From: Planctomycetia bacterium
GTDB lineage: Bacteria > Planctomycetota > Phycisphaerae > UBA1845 > UTPLA1
Direction of reading: 5' to 3'
Assembly (NCBI GenBank): GCA_015075745.1
Contig: JABTTW010000001.1
Coordinates: forward strand, 1,178,001-1,242,000
Length of the DNA: 64,000 nucleotides
The notes below the pieces were generated by a model, which was not told where the DNA came from, made no database searches, and worked only from the letters and a program-made list of their open reading frames with translations. The position numbers were made by a program, and so were the translations under genes. Shown piece by piece: positions 43,801 through 55,882 of this stretch (position 1 is the stretch's first letter; each line of letters begins with the position of its first letter).

Positions 43801-46218
43801 TCAGGCGGCCGAGCGTCGGGCGCCGCGAATCAGATCTCGGCAACTGATGGCACCCCACGCCACGAGCAGGAAGAATCCACCGGCGTATGTGGCCCAGCAG
43901 CCGATGGCCAACGAGCGCGGCGCGTATTCGATCATGACCTCGTGCGCCCCGGGCGAAATGGGAATCGCCTGGAATGCAAAGTTCGCGCGACTGATGGGTT
44001 CGACGACGCCGTCAATTGTTGCCCGCCATCCGGGCCAGTAGGCGTTGGAGATGAAAAGCCATCGCGGCTTGTCCGTGGCGACGGAGAGCTTGATGCGGTC
44101 GCCCTTGTAGTCGTTGATGCTCACGACACGCGTGCCGTCGAACGGCGCGGCCCCTGCAGCAGGCGCGGACGTGGTTTGAGGCTCGACCGAGTCGAAAAAG
44201 TGCACGACCTTGGAGGGATCGAAGTCTTCGGCGATGACGGCGCGGAGGACGTCGCCCTCGCGCTCGTGCGTCACCGCTTTATCAACGAGAAACGCGCGGG
44301 GAAGGGGGTCGGGGAGTTCGTAGTAAATGGCTTCGCCGATACTCCTCGTCGAGACGGGCCGCGGCGCACCGGGTAGCGTGAACTGTTCCCACGAACGGTT
44401 ATCTATAACGTATCGCACGCCGAACAGTTTGTATGCCGGGAGATCGAAGCGCCTGCGCAGCGCCGCGGCGGATCCAGCGTTGTGAAACCGCGGATAATCG
44501 CCGGGCCGGATGTGACGAAGGCTAAACAGCTTCTCGAACTGGGGGGCAAAGTTGCTGGCGAGTCCCTGAAGGACGTAAGCGTTTTGGGGGACCATGTCGC
44601 CTGAATCCCAGCCCCATAACCCCTCAGCGGTTTCACTGTAAAGCGAAAGAAATCCCGCGAGCGGGTGGCCGCCGAGCTTGGGTGAGTAGAGATCGTAGCG
44701 GTAGGGTCCGCCGGCGCTCATCGGCTCGGTAGACTTAACGGCAAGTGCTCGCCGCCGCGTCGCATCAAGGCTGCGGCTGTCGGTGTTAACGCCCGGGATG
44801 TTGGAGTTGGTCGTGGCAAGTTCGATGAAGAAAACCAGGAGCAAGAGAATGCCTGCAAACTTTCGACGGATGCTGCCGACCCGATGCGCGGCGGCCAGCG
44901 CGCCGACGGCGAACGCCGCGAGGAGGAATGCGGCGGCAAGCGTGGACTGCGTGCGAATCAATGCGACTGCCTGCTCGGTTCCGAAGGCTGCCTGTAAGAC
45001 GACGAGGATACCGAGCAGCGCCGCGACGATGATCGCGTGCCGACGCCAGCGAGCGGGCAGGTCAGGCTCCGTCGATTGCAGGATGCGACCGACTCCCAGA
45101 GCGACCAGCGGCAGCAGCGCGAGCTGTGTCACGCCCCAGGCATTCATCACACCGCGAATCAGCTTGTAGCCGGGCAGGGTGCGCGAAGCCCAACGGCCGA
45201 TGAAAGTCGATGACTGAAACCCGAGGACGAAGAAAATCGCAGCAACGCAGATGAGCACGATGGGCCATGCCCGATAGCGACCGCGAACAGCGAATGTGGC
45301 AAGGAGAAGCGGTACGACGCCGATGAACATGGTCTGGTCGAGCGTGGGATCGCCGAGGTAGCCCATTTGCGGGAAGAGAATCTGTCCGACGCCGCGAAGG
45401 TCGAGGGGATAGAACCACTCATCGTAGCTGCCGCGAATGTATTGGCCGCCTGCTTCCAGGGCCGGGAGAATGACTGCGGCGGAGATGATGACGTAGCCTG
45501 CGCCGAGGATCGCTATGCGGGCTAAAGTTTGCCCGAGAATCATTCGCCAGTTGCCGCGAGAAAGCAGTGCTCGCAGGACGATGAGCGTTGAGGTGCCGAT
45601 GACGGCGAAGTAAACGATGTATGAACCGGCGAGACCGCAAACGCCCAGCAAAATTCCCGCAGCAAGGGTGTGCCGCAACCAGTCTCGGCGATAGCTACGG
45701 ATGAGGCTCGTAAAGATCCACGGAAACCATGCGAACTGAAACACAATCGTCGAGTGCTGCAGATGGCCGCAGAGATAGCCGCAGCCGAAGAAGAAGACGC
45801 CTCCGAAGACGGACGAGAAGCGGTCGCAGCCAAATGAGCGAGCCAGTCGGTATGCGCCGATGGCGCCGAATAGGATGTGGGCCAGCGTGTACCAGACGAA
45901 TCGCTTGATGGAAAATGCGTCGCCGCCGACGTAGAGCAATTTGTGAAACGGATAATAGAGTCCGGTCTCGGGGATGGCGCAGTGGCTCATGCCTCCCCAG
46001 AACTGCGGCAGCCAGAGTGGGGTTTCGCCGTTCGCATTGAAGAGTGCATTGCGGGAAAGCATGGCATAGTGCGGGCCCTGAAAGTCGTAGGGAAAGGCCC
46101 GGGCGGCGATCATGTAGGGTGAGTAGAAGCTCACAAACAGGAGCAGCAGGACGAGCATGGGCCAGACATGTCGCCACGGCCCGCGATTCGAAGCAGAAAA
46201 CGCGGCAGGCCCGGTCAC
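43801..46218 (-). CDS. YfhO-like large polytopic membrane protein
   Basis: 805 residues. At least eleven hydrophobic helices fill the first ~480 residues, starting WPMLVLLLLFVSFYSP. A periplasmic domain follows, then YWPGWRATIDG near the C-terminus, characteristic of the YfhO family, and a final helix. Related GT-C-type proteins glycosylate lipids or teichoic acids. The GTG start overlaps the stop of the aminotransferase remnant upstream. Located beside the glycan exporter, it probably serves envelope glycan assembly. Confidence 0.8.
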   Translation of the reverse strand: MTGPAAFSASNRGPWRHVWPMLVLLLLFVSFYSPYMIAARAFPYDFQGPHYAMLSRNALFNANGETPLWLPQFWGGMSHCAIPETGLYYPFHKLLYVGGDAFSIKRFVWYTLAHILFGAIGAYRLARSFGCDRFSSVFGGVFFFGCGYLCGHLQHSTIVFQFAWFPWIFTSLIRSYRRDWLRHTLAAGILLGVCGLAGSYIVYFAVIGTSTLIVLRALLSRGNWRMILGQTLARIAILGAGYVIISAAVILPALEAGGQYIRGSYDEWFYPLDLRGVGQILFPQMGYLGDPTLDQTMFIGVVPLLLATFAVRGRYRAWPIVLICVAAIFFVLGFQSSTFIGRWASRTLPGYKLIRGVMNAWGVTQLALLPLVALGVGRILQSTEPDLPARWRRHAIIVAALLGILVVLQAAFGTEQAVALIRTQSTLAAAFLLAAFAVGALAAAHRVGSIRRKFAGILLLLVFFIELATTNSNIPGVNTDSRSLDATRRRALAVKSTEPMSAGGPYRYDLYSPKLGGHPLAGFLSLYSETAEGLWGWDSGDMVPQNAYVLQGLASNFAPQFEKLFSLRHIRPGDYPRFHNAGSAAALRRRFDLPAYKLFGVRYVIDNRSWEQFTLPGAPRPVSTRSIGEAIYYELPDPLPRAFLVDKAVTHEREGDVLRAVIAEDFDPSKVVHFFDSVEPQTTSAPAAGAAPFDGTRVVSINDYKGDRIKLSVATDKPRWLFISNAYWPGWRATIDGVVEPISRANFAFQAIPISPGAHEVMIEYAPRSLAIGCWATYAGGFFLLVAWGAISCRDLIRGARRSAA

Positions 46219-46512: not shown

Positions 46513-46541
46513 TTGACCCCTGCGTGACGAATGACTACGAT
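46513..46541 (+). promoter_or_regulatory. Sigma70-type promoter of the cys-hem operon
   Basis: TTGACC (46513-46518), exactly 17 nt, then TACGAT (46536-46541). The expected start site (about 46548-46550) lies at or next to the ATG of the Cys-rich leader ORF. Confidence 0.7.
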
Positions 46542-46550
46542 AGGTCGATC

Positions 46551-46670
46551 ATGAATGCACGGCTATCGCCTATGAATGTTTGCGGTCAATCTGACTCAGC
46601 CGTGCCGATGATCTGCGCCCGTTGCTGCTGCTGTTGTTGTTGTATTAAGTGTCTGGGAGGAGCCTCCTGA
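46551..46670 (+). CDS. Cysteine-rich leader peptide (attenuator uORF)
   Basis: 39 residues from the ATG at 46551, or 32 from the in-frame ATG at 46572. Seven consecutive Cys codons (three TGC, four TGT; 46623-46643) are flanked by further Cys codons at 46581, 46614 and 46650: ten Cys in all. The promoter places the transcript start at the first ATG, so it is probably translated leaderless. A strong intrinsic terminator stands 46 nt after the stop, and sulfate-assimilation genes follow. This is the layout of an amino-acid attenuator in which ribosomes stall when Cys-tRNA is scarce. The function is inferred from layout. Confidence 0.8.
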   Translation: MNARLSPMNVCGQSDSAVPMICARCCCCCCCIKCLGGAS

Positions 46671-46715
46671 CGGCAGCAGTGCACCGCTGAATTGACAAGC
46701 GATTCGCAATGACTG

Positions 46716-46755
46716 ACGGCCCTCAGGATAGTTCCTGAAAGGGCCGTTTTTATTT
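46716..46755 (+). terminator. Attenuator terminator upstream of cysH
   Basis: ACGGCCCTCAGGA (46716-46728) pairs with TCCTGAAAGGGCCGT (46733-46747), with two extra A in the right arm and a TAGT loop. TTTTTATTT runs to 46755. TCCTGA at the end of the leader ORF (46665-46670) is complementary to TCAGGA in the left arm, a possible antiterminator contact. Confidence 0.88.
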
Positions 46756-46781
46756 GGCTCAAGCAGGCGGGAGTTTGCACC

Positions 46782-47498
46782 GTGGGATTACCAGTGCTAC
46801 CGAATGATGGCAAGCCGGCGCGGCTCGGTGAAGCGAGCGGTCCGCAGGAGCTTGTCGCCTGGAGCCTTCGCCATTTCGCGGGCAGACGGATGGAAATGAG
46901 CACCAGCTTCGGCATGGAGGGCTGCGTGCTGATCGACATGTATGCCCGAAGCGGGCAGCCGCTGACAGTTTTTTATCTCGACACGATGTTCTTTTTCCCG
47001 GAGACCTATCAACTGCGCGATCGGATGATTGAGCGATATCCGAACCTGACTTTCGTGAATCGCGGAACGACACTGACGCCGGAGGAGCAGGAAAAAAAGC
47101 ACGGCCCGGAATTGTGGAAGACTCAGCCCGATCTCTGCTGCAAGATTCGCAAGGTCGATCCGATGCACGGCGCCTTGGACGGGGTGGACGTTTGGATCAC
47201 GGCGCTGCGACGGAGTCAATCCGAGACCCGGGCGAACATTCGCGTGCTGGAATGGGACTGGAAGTATCAGGTGCTCAAGTTGAGCCCGCTGGCGGCATGG
47301 AGTCGCAAGGATGTCTGGAACTACATCAGGGAGAACGGCGTTCCGTACAACGAGCTTAACGAAAAGGGGTACCCGACGGTGGGGTGTACACACTGTACGA
47401 TCCCGGTCGAGAATCTGATGATCGGAGATTACAGCCGCGACGGTCGTTGGGCGGGTTCGGCGAAGAAGGAGTGCGGGCTGCACGGTGAAGGCATCTGA
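46782..47498 (+). CDS. cysH: Assimilatory adenylylsulfate (APS) reductase
   Basis: 238 residues; reduces APS to sulfite. The iron-sulfur cysteines CC (119-120) and CxxC (202-205, GCTHC) identify the [4Fe-4S] APS-type enzyme rather than the PAPS type, which lacks them. The catalytic Cys231 sits in KKECGLHGEGI. TSFGMEG and YLDTMFFFPETY are typical of the family. The GTG start has a GGGAG site nine bases upstream. It is the first structural gene after the attenuator, and cysI begins 20 bp later. There is no fused thioredoxin domain. Confidence 0.94.
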   Translation: MGLPVLPNDGKPARLGEASGPQELVAWSLRHFAGRRMEMSTSFGMEGCVLIDMYARSGQPLTVFYLDTMFFFPETYQLRDRMIERYPNLTFVNRGTTLTPEEQEKKHGPELWKTQPDLCCKIRKVDPMHGALDGVDVWITALRRSQSETRANIRVLEWDWKYQVLKLSPLAAWSRKDVWNYIRENGVPYNELNEKGYPTVGCTHCTIPVENLMIGDYSRDGRWAGSAKKECGLHGEGI

Positions 47499-47518: not shown

Positions 47519-49252
47519 ATGGCTGAAGAAGGCGCCAAGAAGGAATCGAGGGTCGAAGGTTATAAACGCGACAGCCGCCGTCTGCGCGGAACAATCAAGG
47601 AAACGCTTGCCGGGCCGGCGACGCACTTCGAAGACGCCGACGCCAATCTGCTGAAGTTCCACGGGTCCTATCAGCAGGATGATCGGGATGCACGGCGGAG
47701 CCTGCGCGACAGCGGTCAGGGCAAGGCCTACATGTTCATGGTGCGCCTGGCGATACCGGGCGGGGTCGTTTCCCCTGACCAGTATTTGAAGCTGGATGAG
47801 CTGGCGGACGTCTGCGGCAACGGCTCGTTGCGCGTCACCTCACGTCAGGGTTTCCAGTTTCACGGCGTGTTGAAGGAAAAGCTCAAGGAGACGATTGCCG
47901 GAGTTAATCGCATTCTTCTGACGACGATCTCTGCGTGCGGAGACGTAGAGCGAAACGTGATGGCGTGTCCCGCGCCATTGGCGGACCAGCCGCACGCCCT
48001 GTTGCGACAGACGGCGCGCGATATCGCCGTGCAACTGCGACCGGCCAGCCGGGCGTATTACGAAATCTGGCTGGACGAGGACGAACTCGTCAACACGCAG
48101 GAAGATGAGCCTTTTTACGGCGACGCCTACCTGCCTCGGAAATTCAAGACGGCGATCTCGCTGGACACGGACAATTGCGTGGATATCTACAACAACGACT
48201 GCGGACTCATCGCCATCGTCGAGAACGACAGCATCGCGGGATTCAATCTCGTCGCCGGCGGCGGCATGGGCATGACGCACGGCAAGGCGGATACGATCGC
48301 TCGACTGGCCGAGCCGATCGGCTTCGTTGAGCCGGCGAATTCCGTTGAGGCGGTGAAAACAGTTGCGGCGATCTTTCGTGACTCGGGTAATCGAGCGGAT
48401 CGACGACATGCACGCCTGAAGTATCTGCTGCAGGATCGCGGCGTCGATTGGTTCATGGAGGAATTTCGTAGGCGAGTATCGTTTCAACTGGCGCCGTCCC
48501 GGGCACTTCCGCCGCCCAGCTATCACGACCATCTGGGAAAGCACGCACAAGGCGACGGCAAGTTCTTCTACGGACTGTTTATTGAGAACGGGCGGATTGC
48601 GGACCGCGACACCGAGCGTATGCGCTCGGCGCTGCGAGCGATCGTGCGTAACTATCGCCCGGGCCTTCGGCTCACGGCGAGTCAGAACGTCCTGCTGACA
48701 GATCTCAGTGAGCAGGCAATCGCGGGAGTTGAAAAGACGCTCCGAGATCATGGGGTGCGACTCGTTGAGGAGTTGTCCGCGGCACGGCGATACTCCCTGG
48801 CCTGTCCGGCGCTTCCCACGTGCGGCCTGGCCGTGTCCGAGTCGGAGCGGCTCATGCCGACGCTTATCGATCGCTTCGAGGCGGAACTGGCGTCGCTTGG
48901 CCTGCGCGACGAGCCGCTCACGCTTCGCATGACGGGCTGCCCCAACGGCTGCGCGCGGCCCTACACGGCGGATATCTCGTTCGTGGGTCACCGGCCGGAT
49001 GTGTATAACGTGTTCGTCGGTGGAGGGATGCCGGGAGACCGCGTGGCGGATCTCTTCGCCGAGGATGTCGCAACGGGAGATCTCTTATCCACGTTGCGGC
49101 CGCTACTTACGCGATGGTCAAAAGAGCGGCAGCCAAACGAAAGCCTAAGCGATTTCTACCAACGGCTAGCCGGTGTCACATCCCGTCGACAATTCATTAC
49201 CGGCAGAGAGACGCCGACAGCGGGCGGATTGTCTCTGACGGTGCTGCCATGA
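47519..49252 (+). CDS. cysI: Sulfite (or nitrite) reductase, siroheme type
   Basis: 577 residues; six-electron reduction of sulfite to sulfide with a siroheme-[4Fe-4S] centre. The cluster ligands are in ACPALPTCGLAVSESER and TGCPNGCARPYTADI. The two half-repeats typical of the family are present (VTSRQGFQFHGVLK; LTASQNVLLTDL). Position after cysH makes sulfite the likely substrate. Its stop overlaps the hemA start (ATGA), linking it directly to tetrapyrrole synthesis. Confidence 0.92.
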   Translation: MAEEGAKKESRVEGYKRDSRRLRGTIKETLAGPATHFEDADANLLKFHGSYQQDDRDARRSLRDSGQGKAYMFMVRLAIPGGVVSPDQYLKLDELADVCGNGSLRVTSRQGFQFHGVLKEKLKETIAGVNRILLTTISACGDVERNVMACPAPLADQPHALLRQTARDIAVQLRPASRAYYEIWLDEDELVNTQEDEPFYGDAYLPRKFKTAISLDTDNCVDIYNNDCGLIAIVENDSIAGFNLVAGGGMGMTHGKADTIARLAEPIGFVEPANSVEAVKTVAAIFRDSGNRADRRHARLKYLLQDRGVDWFMEEFRRRVSFQLAPSRALPPPSYHDHLGKHAQGDGKFFYGLFIENGRIADRDTERMRSALRAIVRNYRPGLRLTASQNVLLTDLSEQAIAGVEKTLRDHGVRLVEELSAARRYSLACPALPTCGLAVSESERLMPTLIDRFEAELASLGLRDEPLTLRMTGCPNGCARPYTADISFVGHRPDVYNVFVGGGMPGDRVADLFAEDVATGDLLSTLRPLLTRWSKERQPNESLSDFYQRLAGVTSRRQFITGRETPTAGGLSLTVLP

Positions 49253-50379
49253 TTGAACGATTGCTCTACCTCGGTGCGACGCACAAGACGGCGGCGCTGG
49301 CCGTGCGTGAGCGACTGGCACCGGGGCTGGATCGCATCCCCCTGCTGCTTGCCGGCGTGCGGCGACACGTCGATGAGGCCGTGATCGTTAATACTTGCGG
49401 TCGCTTCGAGTTGTACGCGGTTGCTGGTGATCGTGCGCGGCACGAATGGCTAAGTTGGCTTGCTAGTGCAATGGATCAACCCTCCACGTCATTGGCGACT
49501 ACGTTACATGCTCGCACGGGAATGGACGCGGCGGCACATGTCCTTCGCGTCGCGGCGGGATTTGAGTCTCGCATCACGGGAGAGGATCAGATCCTCGGTC
49601 AGGTGCGTTCGGCATTCGTGACCGCGACGCAAGCGGGCTCGATTGGGCCGATGCTGTCCGCCCTGTTTCGGGCGGCGATTCATGCAGGCCGGCGCGTGCG
49701 ATTCGAAACTGGCTTGGGCGGCGGCGCACGGTCTTTTGCGGGACTCGCGGTTGAGACCTTGTCGGCTCACTTTCGCGACCCGGCATCGATCAAAGTGCTG
49801 GTGATCGGCAGCGGAAGTCTGGCGCACGATGTGGCCGAGAGATGCCGCCGAGCGGGGGTTCGAGAGTTTCACTTCGTGAGTCGTCACATTGATCGAGCGC
49901 GGCTGATGGCGGCAGAGTATGGCGGAATCGCCCTTTCGCTTGACCGACTTGCGGAATCGGATATCGCGGTCGATTCGGTGATAGCGTGCGCAGGCGCGCG
50001 ACAGGCGTTGGTCAGGACGAATCTGGCCGAAAGGCTTGCCGCCGGGCGACGGGATAAGGAGCATCCGCTCTTGATGATCGACCTCGGCGTGCCGCGCAAT
50101 ATCGACGAACATGCAGGCGCGATCTCGGGCATCTTGCTGCGCGATCTGGACATGCTGGGCGGGGTGACGAGTGCACACGCGGAAGAAGTCGCGCAGGCTG
50201 AGGCGATTCTCGTTGAGGAACTGCGGCGCTTTCGATACTGGCTCGCCGGCCGCAGCGCCGCGCCGAGAATCGTCCGTATGCTCGCCAGCGCGGAAGGACT
50301 TGCGGCGGATGCCGCACGGCAACTACGTCGCGATCTACACGGTCCGATCATTCGTTTGAAGGAGGAGGCCGCGGCGTGA
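49249..50379 (+). CDS. hemA: Glutamyl-tRNA reductase
   Basis: 376 residues; makes glutamate-1-semialdehyde from Glu-tRNA, the first step of the C5 pathway. The catalytic Cys50 is in VNTCGRFELYAV (Asn replaced by Gly after the Cys). GEDQILGQVRSAF and the NADPH-binding region VLVIGSGSLAHDVAERC follow. The start overlaps the cysI stop, so the long in-frame extension upstream is not used. The final GGAGGAGG precedes the next gene. Confidence 0.93.
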   Translation: MIERLLYLGATHKTAALAVRERLAPGLDRIPLLLAGVRRHVDEAVIVNTCGRFELYAVAGDRARHEWLSWLASAMDQPSTSLATTLHARTGMDAAAHVLRVAAGFESRITGEDQILGQVRSAFVTATQAGSIGPMLSALFRAAIHAGRRVRFETGLGGGARSFAGLAVETLSAHFRDPASIKVLVIGSGSLAHDVAERCRRAGVREFHFVSRHIDRARLMAAEYGGIALSLDRLAESDIAVDSVIACAGARQALVRTNLAERLAAGRRDKEHPLLMIDLGVPRNIDEHAGAISGILLRDLDMLGGVTSAHAEEVAQAEAILVEELRRFRYWLAGRSAAPRIVRMLASAEGLAADAARQLRRDLHGPIIRLKEEAAA

Positions 50380-52043
50380 AGCGACGGGCGCTGATTCTGG
50401 CCGCACACGGCAGTCGGCACGAGCCGGCTGCGAACGCAATGCTGCGCGCGTGGGCGGAGGAGATCAGGCGCCGAGGGGGATTTGACGATGTCATCGCGGC
50501 GTTTCATCAAGGAGAGCCCCGATTTTGCGAAGTGCTTGATACGATTGAGTCGGACGAAGTTGTCGTCGTGCCGGTGTTGACCAGCCAGGGTTTTTACTGT
50601 GACGAGTTTTTGCCGAAGGAGTTGAGTAAGAACGCGCGTTACGCCGGCTTGCGATTGACGATCACGCCGCCCGTCGGCGTACATCCGGATAGCCAGGCGC
50701 TCGTTGCCAGACGGCTGGATGAACTCGCGAGGCGGTTCGATGCTGATCCAGCGAACTCATCCGTCGCGATTGTGGGGCATGGGACGAAGCGAAATCCGAA
50801 GAGCAGGGTCGCCACGGAGGAGCTTGTCGAGGCGATTCGGCGCACCAGCCAATTCGCCGACGTCGCCGCCTTCTTCCTCGACGAGGAGCCGGGCATTGAG
50901 CAAATCCCGACTCGGCTGAGACATCAGTCGATTCTCGTCGAGCCCTTCCTGATCAGCGGCGGGCATCATGCAAATCGAGACATTCCCGAGAGGCTGGGGA
51001 TCGAGCCGGCGGGCAAACTTCCGTGCGCGGCGCGCCTCGCCGATCGCACGATTGTTGTCGATTCATCCGTGGGAACAGATATTCGCCTAATTGAAGTGAT
51101 TGAGTCACTGGCGCGTCAAGCAATTCAATCGCCCCCGCTTCGACTGGGGACACGCGGCAGCCGGCTGGCACGCTGGCAGGCGCAGTGCGTGGCTGATCTG
51201 CTTCGCGCGCGCGGGACGCAGGTGGAGATTGTCGATATCTCCACGCTGGGAGACCGCATACAGGATCGGCCGATCGACGAACTGGGCTGCGATGACCCGT
51301 TCTCGGCTGACATCGAGGCGGCACTCGATGCTGGTGAAATCGATTTCGCGGTTCATAGCATGAAAGACCTTCCGGTGGATCGTGCGATCGACGAATTCGG
51401 GCGGTTGGGCGTTGCCGCGGTTCTGCCGCGCGGGGAAGTGACGGAGTCGCTCGTTTCAGGTGATCGCAGGACGCTGCGCGAATTGCCGTCTGGCGCGGTC
51501 ATCGGAACAAGCAGTCCGCGGCGGGCGGCGCAGCTCTTGGCACAGAGGCCCGACCTGGTGGTCAAACCGATTCGCGGGGCAGTGGATGACCGGGTCCGGC
51601 AGGTGATGGCCGGGCGGTTTGACGCGGCGATCCTGGCAACGGCGGGACTGGCGCGGCTTGGGCTGCTCAGCGATGCCTGCGAGGAATTCTCACTTGAGAC
51701 GTTCGTGCCCGCTCCGGCGCAAGGGGCGATGGCGATTCAAGCGCGCCGCGACGATGCCGAAGCCTGGCGGCTGTGCGCGGCATTGGACGACGCGGCAACG
51801 AGAATGGCGGTGACGGCGGAACTGACATTTCTTCGGCCTTATGAACATGATGGCGAATGGGTTGCAGCCGCCCACGCAACTATTGAAGCCGAGTGCGTGA
51901 CACTTCGGGCGAGGCTATTGTCGCACGATGGGCAGCGAGTTGAGGATGTGCGCGTGAATGCTATTGATCCGCTTGAGGCCGCCGCAGAGGCGCTGCGACT
52001 ATTGGCGCTGAGAGTCACCCAGCCGGAGGAGTTGCTGCGATGA
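50376..52043 (+). CDS. Fusion of CbiX/SirB-type chelatase and hydroxymethylbilane synthase (HemC)
   Basis: 555 residues. Residues 1-250 are a CbiX/SirB-like ferrochelatase (active-site His11 in AAHGSRHEPAAN; His197/198 in LISGGHHANRD), which inserts iron into sirohydrochlorin. Residues 254-555 are HemC: LRLGTRGSRLARWQA, VHSMKDLPVD (substrate Asp), TSSPRRAAQL, IRGAVDDR and PAPAQGAMAI. Where HemC has GGC, with the Cys that holds the dipyrromethane cofactor, this protein reads HDG (491-493), so that Cys is Gly. The GTG overlaps the hemA stop and has a GGAGGAGG site. Confidence 0.88.
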   Translation: MKRRALILAAHGSRHEPAANAMLRAWAEEIRRRGGFDDVIAAFHQGEPRFCEVLDTIESDEVVVVPVLTSQGFYCDEFLPKELSKNARYAGLRLTITPPVGVHPDSQALVARRLDELARRFDADPANSSVAIVGHGTKRNPKSRVATEELVEAIRRTSQFADVAAFFLDEEPGIEQIPTRLRHQSILVEPFLISGGHHANRDIPERLGIEPAGKLPCAARLADRTIVVDSSVGTDIRLIEVIESLARQAIQSPPLRLGTRGSRLARWQAQCVADLLRARGTQVEIVDISTLGDRIQDRPIDELGCDDPFSADIEAALDAGEIDFAVHSMKDLPVDRAIDEFGRLGVAAVLPRGEVTESLVSGDRRTLRELPSGAVIGTSSPRRAAQLLAQRPDLVVKPIRGAVDDRVRQVMAGRFDAAILATAGLARLGLLSDACEEFSLETFVPAPAQGAMAIQARRDDAEAWRLCAALDDAATRMAVTAELTFLRPYEHDGEWVAAAHATIEAECVTLRARLLSHDGQRVEDVRVNAIDPLEAAAEALRLLALRVTQPEELLR

Positions 52044-53578
52044 GCACCGCTCGCGGCATGGTGTATCTCGTCGGCGCTGGTCCGGGTGACCCCGGGCTCA
52101 TTACCGCGCACGGCTTGGCGCTGCTTCGCCGGGCGGATGTCATCATTCATGACAGACTCATTCCGCATGAACTCTTGGTCGAAGCCCGCGCCGACGCCAT
52201 TGTCATCGACGCGGGAAAGGCGCCGGGCAATCACAAATTGACGCAGGACGAGATCAATCAACTGATCGTCGAACATGCCGAGTCCGGCAAGAGTGTTGTC
52301 CGGCTCAAGGGCGGCGACCCGTTGGTATTCGGCAGGGGATACGAGGAGTATCTCGCGTGCCGCCAGGCGGGGATCGAGAGCGAGATCGTGCCGGGCGTTT
52401 CAAGTGCGATTGCAGCGCCGGCAGCGGTGGGCATCCCGATCACATTTCGCGGCCTGGCCCGGAACTTCATCGTGGTGACAGCACAGACGGGGACATCGGA
52501 CGGCGAGGAGAGTCTAGATTACGACGCCATGGCGAAGATGGACACGATTGTCGTGCTGATGGGTCGGTCGATGATCCGAAACCTTGTCAGCGGGCTGATT
52601 GCCGCGGGCAAGAGTCCGGCAACGCCGGCGGCCTGCATTCAGGAGGCCACAACGCCGCGACAGCTCGTTGTTTCCGGCACGCTGGCCGACATTTGTGATC
52701 GCGCGGACGCCGTGGGAATTGCCGCGCCGATGGTCATGGTTGTCGGGCAGGTTGCGCAATATGCCGTTATGCAGGGCGGATTCGAATCGTTCGGCATTGG
52801 TGAGCGTAGCGAAGCATTGCCGCTTGCGGGCCTTCGTGTCGTCGTAACCGGCTCGCAGTCGTTGAATAGGCGACTGGCGAGCATGCTATCAAGCCGGGGG
52901 GCATCGGTGATCGACTGCCCGTTGATTCGCATTCGATATACCTGCGACGCGGTGCAGCGGGATCGCTGCTTTGGAATGCTGCCGGAGTTTGATTGGGTCG
53001 TCTTTGCATCGGTTCATGGCGTGCGAGGGTTTGTGCGCGCCATGCGCCTCAGCGGGCGAGATCTTCGGCTGCTGGGGCGCGCGAAGATTGCCGCCGTCGG
53101 CAACGCGACGGCGAGGGCCTTGCGACGGGCAGGCCTGAATCCGGATCGCGTGCCGACGGAGCAGACCGCGTCACGGCTCGTATCCGAGCTTCGTGATGAC
53201 GTAAGAGGCCGGCGCGTGCTTTTGCCGTGTGGCAATGTATCGCGGGATGAACTGCCAGTCGGCCTTTCAAATGCCGGGGCGATTATCGATCGACTCGTGG
53301 TCTACGAAAACACGCACGTCGTGACGCCCAAGGCACGCATTGAAAGACTGCGAGAGGGCTTTGACTCCATCATCTTCGGCAGTCCATCGTCCGTCGAGCG
53401 ATTTGCAGCGTTGAAGATTGAGCTCGACCGCGCCGTTGTTGCGTGCATTGGGCCGACGACGGCTGAGGCCCTGCAATCCATCGGTCGAACACCTGATATC
53501 GTGCCGCGAGACTACTCCGTCGAAGGAGTGATCGAGGCCATGACTGAATACTTCCAGCTACAGAAGGTGGTGTCGTGA
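52040..53578 (+). CDS. cobA-hemD: Fusion of uroporphyrinogen-III methyltransferase and uroporphyrinogen-III synthase
   Basis: 512 residues. Residues 1-240 are SUMT (CobA): LVGAGPGDPGLITAHGL, DRLIPHELL and the proline-rich GDPLVFGRG of the SAM-binding methyltransferases. It makes precorrin-2. Residues about 255-512 are HemD: VVVTGSQSLNRRLASML, FASVHGVRGF, RVLLPCGNVSRDELPVGL and FGSPSSVERF. It closes hydroxymethylbilane to uroporphyrinogen III. The fusion hands uroporphyrinogen III directly to the siroheme branch. Overlaps both neighbours by four bases. Confidence 0.94.
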   Translation: MSTARGMVYLVGAGPGDPGLITAHGLALLRRADVIIHDRLIPHELLVEARADAIVIDAGKAPGNHKLTQDEINQLIVEHAESGKSVVRLKGGDPLVFGRGYEEYLACRQAGIESEIVPGVSSAIAAPAAVGIPITFRGLARNFIVVTAQTGTSDGEESLDYDAMAKMDTIVVLMGRSMIRNLVSGLIAAGKSPATPAACIQEATTPRQLVVSGTLADICDRADAVGIAAPMVMVVGQVAQYAVMQGGFESFGIGERSEALPLAGLRVVVTGSQSLNRRLASMLSSRGASVIDCPLIRIRYTCDAVQRDRCFGMLPEFDWVVFASVHGVRGFVRAMRLSGRDLRLLGRAKIAAVGNATARALRRAGLNPDRVPTEQTASRLVSELRDDVRGRRVLLPCGNVSRDELPVGLSNAGAIIDRLVVYENTHVVTPKARIERLREGFDSIIFGSPSSVERFAALKIELDRAVVACIGPTTAEALQSIGRTPDIVPRDYSVEGVIEAMTEYFQLQKVVS

Positions 53579-54558
53579 GCGATCAGCCAATTCACCGATT
53601 TCGTCGTTTGCGTAATAAGCCTGCGATGCGGGACATGATGCGTGAGACGACGCTGTCCATGAACGATTTCGTTTATCCCCTGTTTATCGCCGAGCGATCG
53701 CAGGATGTCGGGCCGGTCACCTCGATGCCGGGCGTCGTCAGGCACTCGCTGGATGGCCTCGATCGGGAAATCGAGCAGATCGCATCGCGACAGATACGAT
53801 CCGTGCTGCTCTTCGGCATTCCAGCGAACAAGGATGATCGCGGCAGCGGTGCATATTGGCAGGACGGCATCATTCCGCGCGCGGTCGATCGAATTAAGAG
53901 GTTACGGGAAGACCTGATCGTCATCGCTGATGTGTGCCTCTGTGAATACACCGACCACGGACATTGCGGCATTGTTCACGGTGAGCAGATCGAAAATGAC
54001 GAGACTTTAGAATTGTTAGCCTCGGCGGCGATTGTTTACGCCGAAGCCGGCGCGGATGTGGTCGCGCCCAGCGCCATGATGGATGGACAGGTGTCCGCCA
54101 TTCGCGCGGCACTCGACAGGTCGGGCCATGATGATACCGCGATACTGTCGTACGCCGTGAAATACGCGTCGGCGCTCTACGGACCCTTTCGCGACGCGGC
54201 GGCGTGCGCGCCGAAGTTCGGCGACCGGCGGAGCCATCAGATGGACCCGGCCAACATGCGCGAGGCGCTGGCGGAAGCGGAAGCAGACGCGGTCGAGGGC
54301 GCGGACATGCTCATGGTCAAACCGGCCGGGGCCTACCTCGACGTGATTGCCGCGGTCAAGGAAAGACTGCCCCGCTTGCCGCTGGCGGCGTATCAGGTGA
54401 GCGGCGAGTACAGCATGATCAAGGCGGCGGCGGCCAATGGCTGGATTGACGAACGCCGAGTCGTGCTCGAAACGCTGACCGCCATCAAGCGGGCCGGCGC
54501 GGACATTGTCATCAGCTACTTCGCCAAAGACGTCGCGGACTATCTTGCGGATCGTTAG
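53575..54558 (+). CDS. hemB: Porphobilinogen synthase (ALA dehydratase)
   Basis: 327 residues. The two catalytic lysines are in YAVKYASALYGPFRDAA and MLMVKPAGAYLDVI. The zinc-type active-site cysteines appear in DVCLCEYTDHGHCGI. Family ends RRLRNKPAMRDM and YPLFI are intact. The GTG start overlaps the previous stop. Confidence 0.97.
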   Translation: MSDQPIHRFRRLRNKPAMRDMMRETTLSMNDFVYPLFIAERSQDVGPVTSMPGVVRHSLDGLDREIEQIASRQIRSVLLFGIPANKDDRGSGAYWQDGIIPRAVDRIKRLREDLIVIADVCLCEYTDHGHCGIVHGEQIENDETLELLASAAIVYAEAGADVVAPSAMMDGQVSAIRAALDRSGHDDTAILSYAVKYASALYGPFRDAAACAPKFGDRRSHQMDPANMREALAEAEADAVEGADMLMVKPAGAYLDVIAAVKERLPRLPLAAYQVSGEYSMIKAAAANGWIDERRVVLETLTAIKRAGADIVISYFAKDVADYLADR

Positions 54559-54598
54559 CCGCTCGCGTCGCAGACCCAGGCCCATTACCCTCTTGCGA

Positions 54599-55882
54599 AT
54601 GTCTCATTCCGAAGAACTATTCCGTCGCGCAGTTGGGCTCATGCCCGGAGGAGTCAACTCCCCGGTTCGTGCGTTCAAGAGTGTCGGCGGGACGCCCCGA
54701 TTCATCGTCTCCGCGCGCGGCTGCCGACTGACGGACGTCGATGGTCGGCAATACATCGACTACATCGGTTCCTGGGGGCCGATGATCCTCGGGCACGCTC
54801 ATCCGGAGGTGACGGAGGCGCTCGCTCAGTGCCTGGCAAATGGCACCAGTTATGGCGCACCGTGCCCGGCGGAGGTGGAATTGGCCGAGGAGATATGCCG
54901 GCGCATGCCGTCGATCGAGCGCATCCGGTTCGTGAACTCGGGCACCGAAGCGGTCATGAGCGCCATTCGCCTGGCTCGGGCGGCGACGGGTCGCACGCAC
55001 ATCGTGAAGTTCGAGGGGTGCTATCACGGTCATGCGGACTCACTACTCGTCAAGGCGGGCTCCGGCGTGGCGACATTCGCTTTGCCGGATTCACCGGGCG
55101 TTACGAGTGCCTGCGCCGAGACGACATTGATTGCGCCGTTTAATGATCTGGCCGCCGTTGAAGAACTCTTCGAGACATTCCCCGAGAAAATCGCCGCGGT
55201 CATCGTTGAGCCGATCGCCGGCAACATGGGTGTCGTGCCGCCGGCATCGGGCTTTCTCGACGGACTGGGAAAAATTACAAGCTCCGACGGGGCGCTGCTC
55301 ATTTTCGACGAGGTGATGACGGGGTTTCGCGTTGCGGCAGGTGGGGCTCAGAGCATTTACGAAGTCAGACCGGACCTCACGACTATGGGCAAGATCATCG
55401 GCGGCGGCCTGCCGGTTGGGGCGTACGGTGGACGTGCGGATTTGATGGACATGATCGCACCGGCTGGACCGGTTTATCAGGCGGGCACGCTTTCTGGCAA
55501 TCCCCTGGCGATGACCGCGGGACTGACGACACTGCGGCAACTCGATCAGGCCGCATACGCGACACTCGATGCGAGGTCAGCAGAACTTCAGCAGGGACTT
55601 GAATCCCTGTTGCAGGAGCACAGTGTGCCCGGCGTCGTGCAGCGTGCGGGCTCGATGCTGACGTTGTTCTTTTCCGATCAACCGGTTCGTAACTTCCACG
55701 ATGCGAAGTCGTGTGAACACCGCCGCTTCGCTGCATTCTTCCACGAAATGCTGGAGCGGGGCGTACACTTGCCGCCCAGCGGCTATGAGGCATGGTTCGT
55801 GTCGTTGGCGCACGACTCGGCGGCCATTGCCGAGACGCTTTCCGCCGCGCGCGAGGGATTGCGCAAAATTGCGGCGGGATAG
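54599..55882 (+). CDS. hemL: Glutamate-1-semialdehyde 2,1-aminomutase
   Basis: 427 residues; converts the hemA product to 5-aminolevulinate. Family start LMPGGVNSPVRAFKSVGG, FVNSGTEAVMSAIRLARA, FDEVMTGFRVA and the PLP-Lys motif GKIIGGGLPVGAYGG are present. It begins 40 bp after hemB, so an in-frame start inside hemB is less likely. The last 100 bp overlap the antisense 3' end of the next gene. Confidence 0.96.
   Translation: MSHSEELFRRAVGLMPGGVNSPVRAFKSVGGTPRFIVSARGCRLTDVDGRQYIDYIGSWGPMILGHAHPEVTEALAQCLANGTSYGAPCPAEVELAEEICRRMPSIERIRFVNSGTEAVMSAIRLARAATGRTHIVKFEGCYHGHADSLLVKAGSGVATFALPDSPGVTSACAETTLIAPFNDLAAVEELFETFPEKIAAVIVEPIAGNMGVVPPASGFLDGLGKITSSDGALLIFDEVMTGFRVAAGGAQSIYEVRPDLTTMGKIIGGGLPVGAYGGRADLMDMIAPAGPVYQAGTLSGNPLAMTAGLTTLRQLDQAAYATLDARSAELQQGLESLLQEHSVPGVVQRAGSMLTLFFSDQPVRNFHDAKSCEHRRFAAFFHEMLERGVHLPPSGYEAWFVSLAHDSAAIAETLSAAREGLRKIAAG

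Follow-up and report, generated by a model that had tools for sequence, protein, structure and literature searches.

A leader that is very probably a cysteine-responsive, ribosome-mediated transcription attenuator precedes the cysH operon in a 64,000-nucleotide stretch of planctomycete DNA, called the window here. Judging from sequence, a group of uncultured planctomycetes most likely senses a shortage of cysteine through this leader peptide and an RNA switch, and turns on the genes for sulfate reduction only then. The parts of the element, their conservation, the covariation of the leader end with the terminator, the alternative folds and the position of the leaderless start were computed here, on evidence that is comparative and thermodynamic throughout. 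Coordinates are collected in Table 1.

The leader ORF, whose product is MNARLSPMNVCGQSDSAVPMICARCCCCCCCIKCLGGAS followed by the stop codon, contains consecutive codons for cysteine, the end product of the operon, just as the leaders of trp-type attenuators contain codons for theirs. The original prediction had called for a promoter, a 39-codon ORF with seven Cys codons in succession and ten Cys in total, and a start of this ORF close to the expected start of the transcript, all of which are present in the sequence. The spacer between the two promoter hexamers is 17 nt, and the ATG at 46551 lies nine bases past the −10 hexamer. The transcript start predicted from the promoter position (~46547–46549) is 2–4 nt 5′ of this ATG, and the leader AUG is thus predicted to stand at the start of a leaderless mRNA or a few bases from it. 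This is the sole promoter-like site with a match of at least 9/12 between 45000 and 50000, where 1.3 would be expected, so that taken alone the promoter is weak evidence. The leaderless character that had been proposed gains support from comparison: a promoter matching at least 9/12 with an ATG 5–9 nt past the −10 hexamer was found at 22 of 36 loci, against a mean of 0.03 in mononucleotide shuffles.

Elsewhere in the same genome there are just three runs of at least five Cys codons, and a control with the reversed pattern gives as many; two that were inspected are out of frame within longer ORFs. TGT and TGC alternate within the Cys runs, and the run is kept as codons. Over 36 loci the runs contain 139 TGT and 41 TGC codons, the reverse of cysH itself (34 and 123; Fisher p 2e-25, a value that overstates independence because near relatives were counted separately). 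This strong preference of the group's leader runs for TGT (46623–46643 in the window) might adjust the stalling, or keep GCTGCTGC from pairing.

Table 1. Features of the cysH leader and operon in the window.
Feature	Coordinates	Strand	Remarks
Sigma70-like promoter TTGACC-N17-TACGAT, predicted	46513–46541	+	−35 TTGACC 46513–46518; −10 TACGAT 46536–46541
Leader peptide ORF, 39 codons, 10 Cys, predicted leaderless	46551–46670	+	ATG 46551; stop 46668–46670
Seven consecutive Cys codons, putative stall codons	46623–46643	+	Additional Cys at 46650–46652
Antiterminator 5′ strand AGGAGC-C-TCCTGA	46658–46670	+	Leader's last codons and stop; covaries with terminator
Intrinsic terminator, predicted	46715–46755	+	Stem 46715–46748, U-tract 46747–46755; folding, hairpin covariation
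Antiterminator 3′ strand TCAGGA-TA-GTTCCT	46723–46736	+	Folds, pair counts
cysH, phospho/adenylylsulfate reductase, presumed regulated gene	46782–47498	+	GTG start 46782; Pfam PAPS_reduct E 1.3e-46
cysI-like sulfite reductase	47519–49252	+	Pfam NIR_SIR and NIR_SIR_ferr
hemA, glutamyl-tRNA reductase	49249–50379	+	ATGA: hemA start overlaps cysI stop; GlutR_N match
Sirohydrochlorin chelatase (CbiX)/hemC fusion	50376–52043	+	Overlaps hemA by 4 nt
Uroporphyrinogen methyltransferase (cobA)/hemD fusion	52040–53578	+	Pfam TP_methylase and HEM4
hemB	53575–54558	+	Pfam ALAD E 7e-144
hemL-like aminotransferase	54599–55882	+	Pfam Aminotran_3

The genes expected downstream, cysH and then cysI, are borne out by their Pfam matches, and the operon extends farther than this pair, through tetrapyrrole genes to hemL. 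The order is cysH-cysI-hemA-cbiX/hemC-cobA/hemD-hemB-hemL, and most junctions are 4-nt overlaps. The genes from cysH through hemL are presumably co-transcribed, hemL probably being the last of the operon. In this genome, which is 97% complete, hemA is the one match to GlutR_N. The sole hemA is found in a tightly overlapped operon (49249–55882) behind a predicted cysteine attenuator; either an internal promoter is present or the supply of tetrapyrroles tracks cysteine status.

As in trp-type attenuators, an intrinsic terminator is predicted between the leader ORF and the first structural gene; among the loci compared it is weakest in L037. Such a terminator had been placed 46 nt past the leader stop; the hairpin is there, and the gap to its stem is 44 nt. 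Downstream of the stem is TTTTTATTT. Together with its 5′ flank (46683–46755) the terminator folds at −31.4 kcal/mol (z −6.2 vs. shuffles), and covariation within the hairpin amounts to 31 cells changed on both sides.

The 5′ strand of the antiterminator is a near-palindrome that resembles the top of the terminator, and the 3′ strand overlaps the terminator in its loop and in the top of both its arms. A six-base contact, TCCTGA (46665–46670) with TCAGGA (46723–46728), was part of the original prediction. It exists, but its extent was understated: AGGAGC (46658–46663) pairs with GTTCCT (46731–46736), and the two nested contacts make one helix of 12 bp. As first described, CTGACGGC occurs as a direct repeat, at 46667 and again at 46713.

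Folding with and without a ribosome, the check originally suggested, gave the alternation that the proposal requires. When the leader end was left free to simulate stalling in the Cys run, the antiterminator was both the minimum-energy and the centroid structure until ~46744 (−35.2 kcal/mol). With a ribosome simulated at the stop, the terminator was the sole structure left; it also formed when the RNA was folded without a ribosome. In the complete RNA of the window, the terminator (−37.5 kcal/mol) is slightly more stable than the antiterminator (−35.2 kcal/mol), and the switch would therefore rely on kinetics, the order of folding being important. Five or more leader-terminator pairs at mid-arm were found in 34 of 36 loci, compared to a mean of 17.6 and a maximum of 21 with shuffled leader ends; the antiterminator is weak or shifted in a few (L017, L029, L030, L037, L005). 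In the window RNA a trp-type pause (1:2) hairpin is predicted between the Cys codons and the post-stop GGCAGCAG; no own-pair covariation was seen for it (z −0.5). In a scan at gathering score no Rfam family matched the locus.

Leader ends were compared with their own terminators and with those of other species. The end of the leader, from its final codons through the stop, has the consensus GGAGC-N-TCC-TGA-CGGC. Duplexes between leader end and terminator are stronger within loci than across species (z −6.7 for 30 loci and −4.3 for 20 representatives, the permutation tests preserving composition and treating related loci as separate, and the reduced set offsetting kinship only in part). When 15-nt windows were moved along the leader and the duplex energies of own and cross-species pairs compared, a single main peak of own-pair signal coincided with the last five codons of the leader; there was no such signal in the Cys run or just past the stop. 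The covariation score of the antiterminator pairs was 0.286 vs. 0.207 when shuffled, and none of 500 shuffles was as high. By pair counting in 24 sequences 77% were standard pairs, which again none of 500 shuffles reached, and sliding the partner lowered this to 30–50%. A loop pair (columns 50–135) occurs as six standard types, AU, GC, GU, CG, UA and UG, with both sides changed in 10 of 24, and is not explicable by the terminator itself. A mutually exclusive antiterminator backed by covariation is a further trait of trp-type attenuators, and on these comparative grounds the pairing of leader end and terminator is an antiterminator. The end of the element is 24–33 nt past the last Cys codon in most loci. 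At four loci (L098, L101, L135 and L140) the RNA element is kept although the ORF stops short of it or ends in a different frame, and hence the constraint acts on the RNA.

A cysH orthologue (E ≤ 1e-55, identity at least 48%) is present in 52 of 114 genomes of the order. One (G477) was left out of the count, its upstream DNA being masked with N. As the original prediction would have it, a Cys-rich uORF and a terminator-like hairpin were found before cysH at all 51 readable loci: 46 were identified next to cysH by covariance model R1 (E ≤ 0.01), one lies on the end of an abutting contig (G063) and four were recognized by inspection, which is weaker evidence (G023, G043, G016 and G038, the last, L037, being the poorest). 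Many of these loci are from metagenome-assembled genomes (MAGs) and their hosts are uncultured; named relatives are MAGs of Planctomycetota/Phycisphaerae, e.g., PLA2, PLA6 and UBA1845. In a maximum-likelihood tree of cysH all 43 sampled leader-bearing genes form one clade (100/100). Two MAGs labelled Acidobacteria (L100, L101) also have this leader and attenuator before cysH, and their cysH genes fall inside the planctomycete clade, as a result of either horizontal transfer or misbinning; the operon of L101 is cysH-cbiX-cobA-cysK. Near the cysH locus of one relative (L014, 345–529, minus strand) there is a cobalamin riboswitch (Rfam RF00174, 116.7 bits).

Distant cysH homologues (31–49% identity) in other families generally do not have the leader. 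It was absent from all nine cysH genes of one other family of the same order whose upstream regions were long enough to judge, and among 29 distant cysH loci elsewhere in the phylum a poly-Cys uORF was seen in L071 only, without a terminator. All strong matches of R1 adjoin cysH on its 5′ side, and a search of 392 genomes of the phylum gave nothing convincing outside the order; the matches there, L154 and L155, are gene-end hairpins with no Cys leader. Within the order, the matches inspected away from cysH (L143, L144, L146–L148, L151–L153) are generic terminators or GC-rich stretches, none with a Cys leader ahead of a sulfur gene. A phylum-wide pattern search for longer Cys-codon runs mostly picked up long trinucleotide repeats, which probably belong to genes with glutamine repeats on the opposite strand.

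Several other cysH loci have features of their own. In a sister family, belonging to another order of the class, the Cys-rich uORFs HLCACCCCCGTCC and MELDQMFTDSTAKSCCSICCGVCM, each ending in a stop codon, precede cysH (L071 and L193) with no obvious intrinsic terminator in between; they are possibly a terminator-less form like that of mycobacteria, or of independent origin. Upstream of cysH in a distant planctomycete family (L067) a uORF has four Cys in nine codons (PCRGCRCVSCLGG), and the GC-rich hairpin behind it has no clear U-tract; this uORF may be a remote or independent form. L070 and L191 share, in place of a Cys leader, a GC-rich, hairpin-forming block, CATCTGGACCCTTGGGCCGCA, upstream of cysH that has no match in Rfam.

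The proposed mechanism is as follows. The transcript would begin at or just 5′ of the leader AUG, so that the ribosome would start at the 5′ end of the RNA. When Cys-tRNA(Cys) is short, the ribosome is expected to stall at the Cys codons, before it reaches the end of the leader, leaving 46658–46670 free to pair with 46723–46736 as transcription proceeds. The antiterminator would then block the terminator until RNA polymerase has cleared the U-tract, and cysH to hemL would be read. When Cys-tRNA is plentiful, a ribosome at the stop codon would cover 46658–46670, the terminator would form and transcription would end before cysH. Without translation the RNA should also fold into the terminator. 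That a stalled ribosome prevents termination, as was first suggested, is supported by the covariation of the antiterminator and by the predicted folds. From these we infer stalling at low Cys-tRNA, actual termination and read-through, and the response to cysteine. Counting against this reading are the slightly greater stability of the full-length terminator, the weak or shifted antiterminators of a few loci, the lack of covariation in the pause hairpin, and the mere 3–4 Cys per seven codons at several loci.

The Cys run might instead govern how ribosomes reach cysH or whether its ribosome-binding site is exposed, as reported for mycobacteria, the hairpin being incidental. The leaderless poly-Cys sORFs of mycobacteria are reported, in work cited in PMC9031893 and PMC13236596, to act on translation, and the two sister-family genes (L071, L193) have Cys-rich uORFs with no obvious terminator. 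Such translational attenuation is nevertheless improbable here: a GC-rich hairpin and U-tract are found between uORF and cysH at every readable locus of the order and covary, the antiterminator pairs with the terminator hairpin, and in the window this hairpin ends well 5′ of the cysH start and leaves out the purine-rich ribosome-binding region.

It is marginally less probable still that the uORF makes a functional Cys-rich peptide, binding metals or thiols, or that the nascent chain senses metal or redox state rather than counting codons. Cys-rich peptides are common metal ligands, and CxC and CCC patterns could bind metals. What is kept, however, is just the number and place of the Cys codons. 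Their patterns differ by locus (CCCCCCC, CCCDCCC, CMCCC, CSCTCSC), and the remainder of the peptide is unrelated among loci. The C-terminus follows the RNA pairing, which is retained where the stop has moved, and the runs use TGT, the codon that cysH avoids. A chance Cys-rich ORF next to the terminator of something else is hardly credible, even though consensus promoters and terminators are frequent by chance. The gene upstream of the leader (43801–46218) is on the opposite, minus strand, and the terminator before cysH is therefore not the end of another transcript; the recurrence of uORF and hairpin at all 51 readable orthologous loci refutes this explanation.

If transcription attenuation is the correct reading, classical leader-peptide control extends to a phylum for which no prior description was found in the literature searched, and cysteine joins the amino acids whose biosynthesis has a well-supported terminator/antiterminator switch. 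Initiation at a leaderless AUG would then be coupled to transcription closely enough for attenuation in planctomycetes, bacteria whose cell organization is much debated. Since the sole hemA of the window genome is within the operon, cysteine status would also be linked to the supply of siroheme and heme, unless an internal promoter exists. The compensatory pairs of the antiterminator are directly testable. More tentatively, and with somewhat less than an even chance of being right, these leaders may make up a class of cysteine attenuator in its own right, leaderless and terminator-based, that goes back to the ancestor of one planctomycete order. Cys-tRNA would then gate the formation and reduction of sulfite together with the sole 5-aminolevulinate/tetrapyrrole operon. 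The switch would be an exchange of two near-palindromic hairpins, of which the first consists of the final leader codons with the stop and the second is the top of the terminator.

The kind of regulation is already known, because amino-acid attenuators, mycobacterial Cys leaders and terminator-type attenuation for cysS precede it. Leaders with Cys runs were predicted in Actinobacteria in 2005, without conserved terminator hairpins (Seliverstov et al., PMC1262725). Leaderless poly-Cys uORFs were then seen in mycobacteria (Shell et al., 2015, PMC4633059) and later reported to be cysteine-responsive translational attenuators (Canestrari et al., 2020, Mol Microbiol 114:93, as cited in PMC9031893 and PMC13236596). 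The planctomycete element shares with these a leaderless uORF, as judged only by promoter position, with contiguous Cys codons near its end, a place upstream of sulfur/cysteine genes and cysteine availability as the proposed signal. It differs in phylum and gene set, and in having an intrinsic terminator and a covarying antiterminator, whereas the mycobacterial type has no conserved terminator hairpin and is described as acting on translation.

A literature search, with most subscription journals outside its scope, gave no description in planctomycetes, as had been surmised, nor any for cysH with a terminator; terminator-type attenuation by Cys-tRNA has, however, been proposed for the uORFC-8-2 motif upstream of cysS in Rhodobacterales (PMC8632094). 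Both systems combine tandem Cys codons in a uORF with an intrinsic terminator, and for both a ribosome-mediated attenuation of transcription is proposed. That motif has two Cys codons (positions 14–15), UGC being dominant, in a two-stem structure before cysS of Alphaproteobacteria; here there are longer runs, mainly of UGU, before a cysH operon, and, going by its description, the cysS motif differs in Cys run, gene and layout. A covarying antiterminator helix is not described for it in the passages of PMC8632094 consulted. Like the trp, his, leu and phe attenuators, the leader has a peptide with regulatory codons, a terminator and an antiterminator as alternative folds, and the position of the ribosome as sensor. 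Unlike them it has cysteine as the amino acid, a leaderless start, and a near-palindromic 5′ antiterminator strand, resembling the terminator top, that is formed by the final codons and stop of the leader, and a conserved pause hairpin is unsupported. New here appear to be the planctomycete host, the cysH/tetrapyrrole target, the combination of a leaderless start with an intrinsic terminator, and the nested antiterminator.
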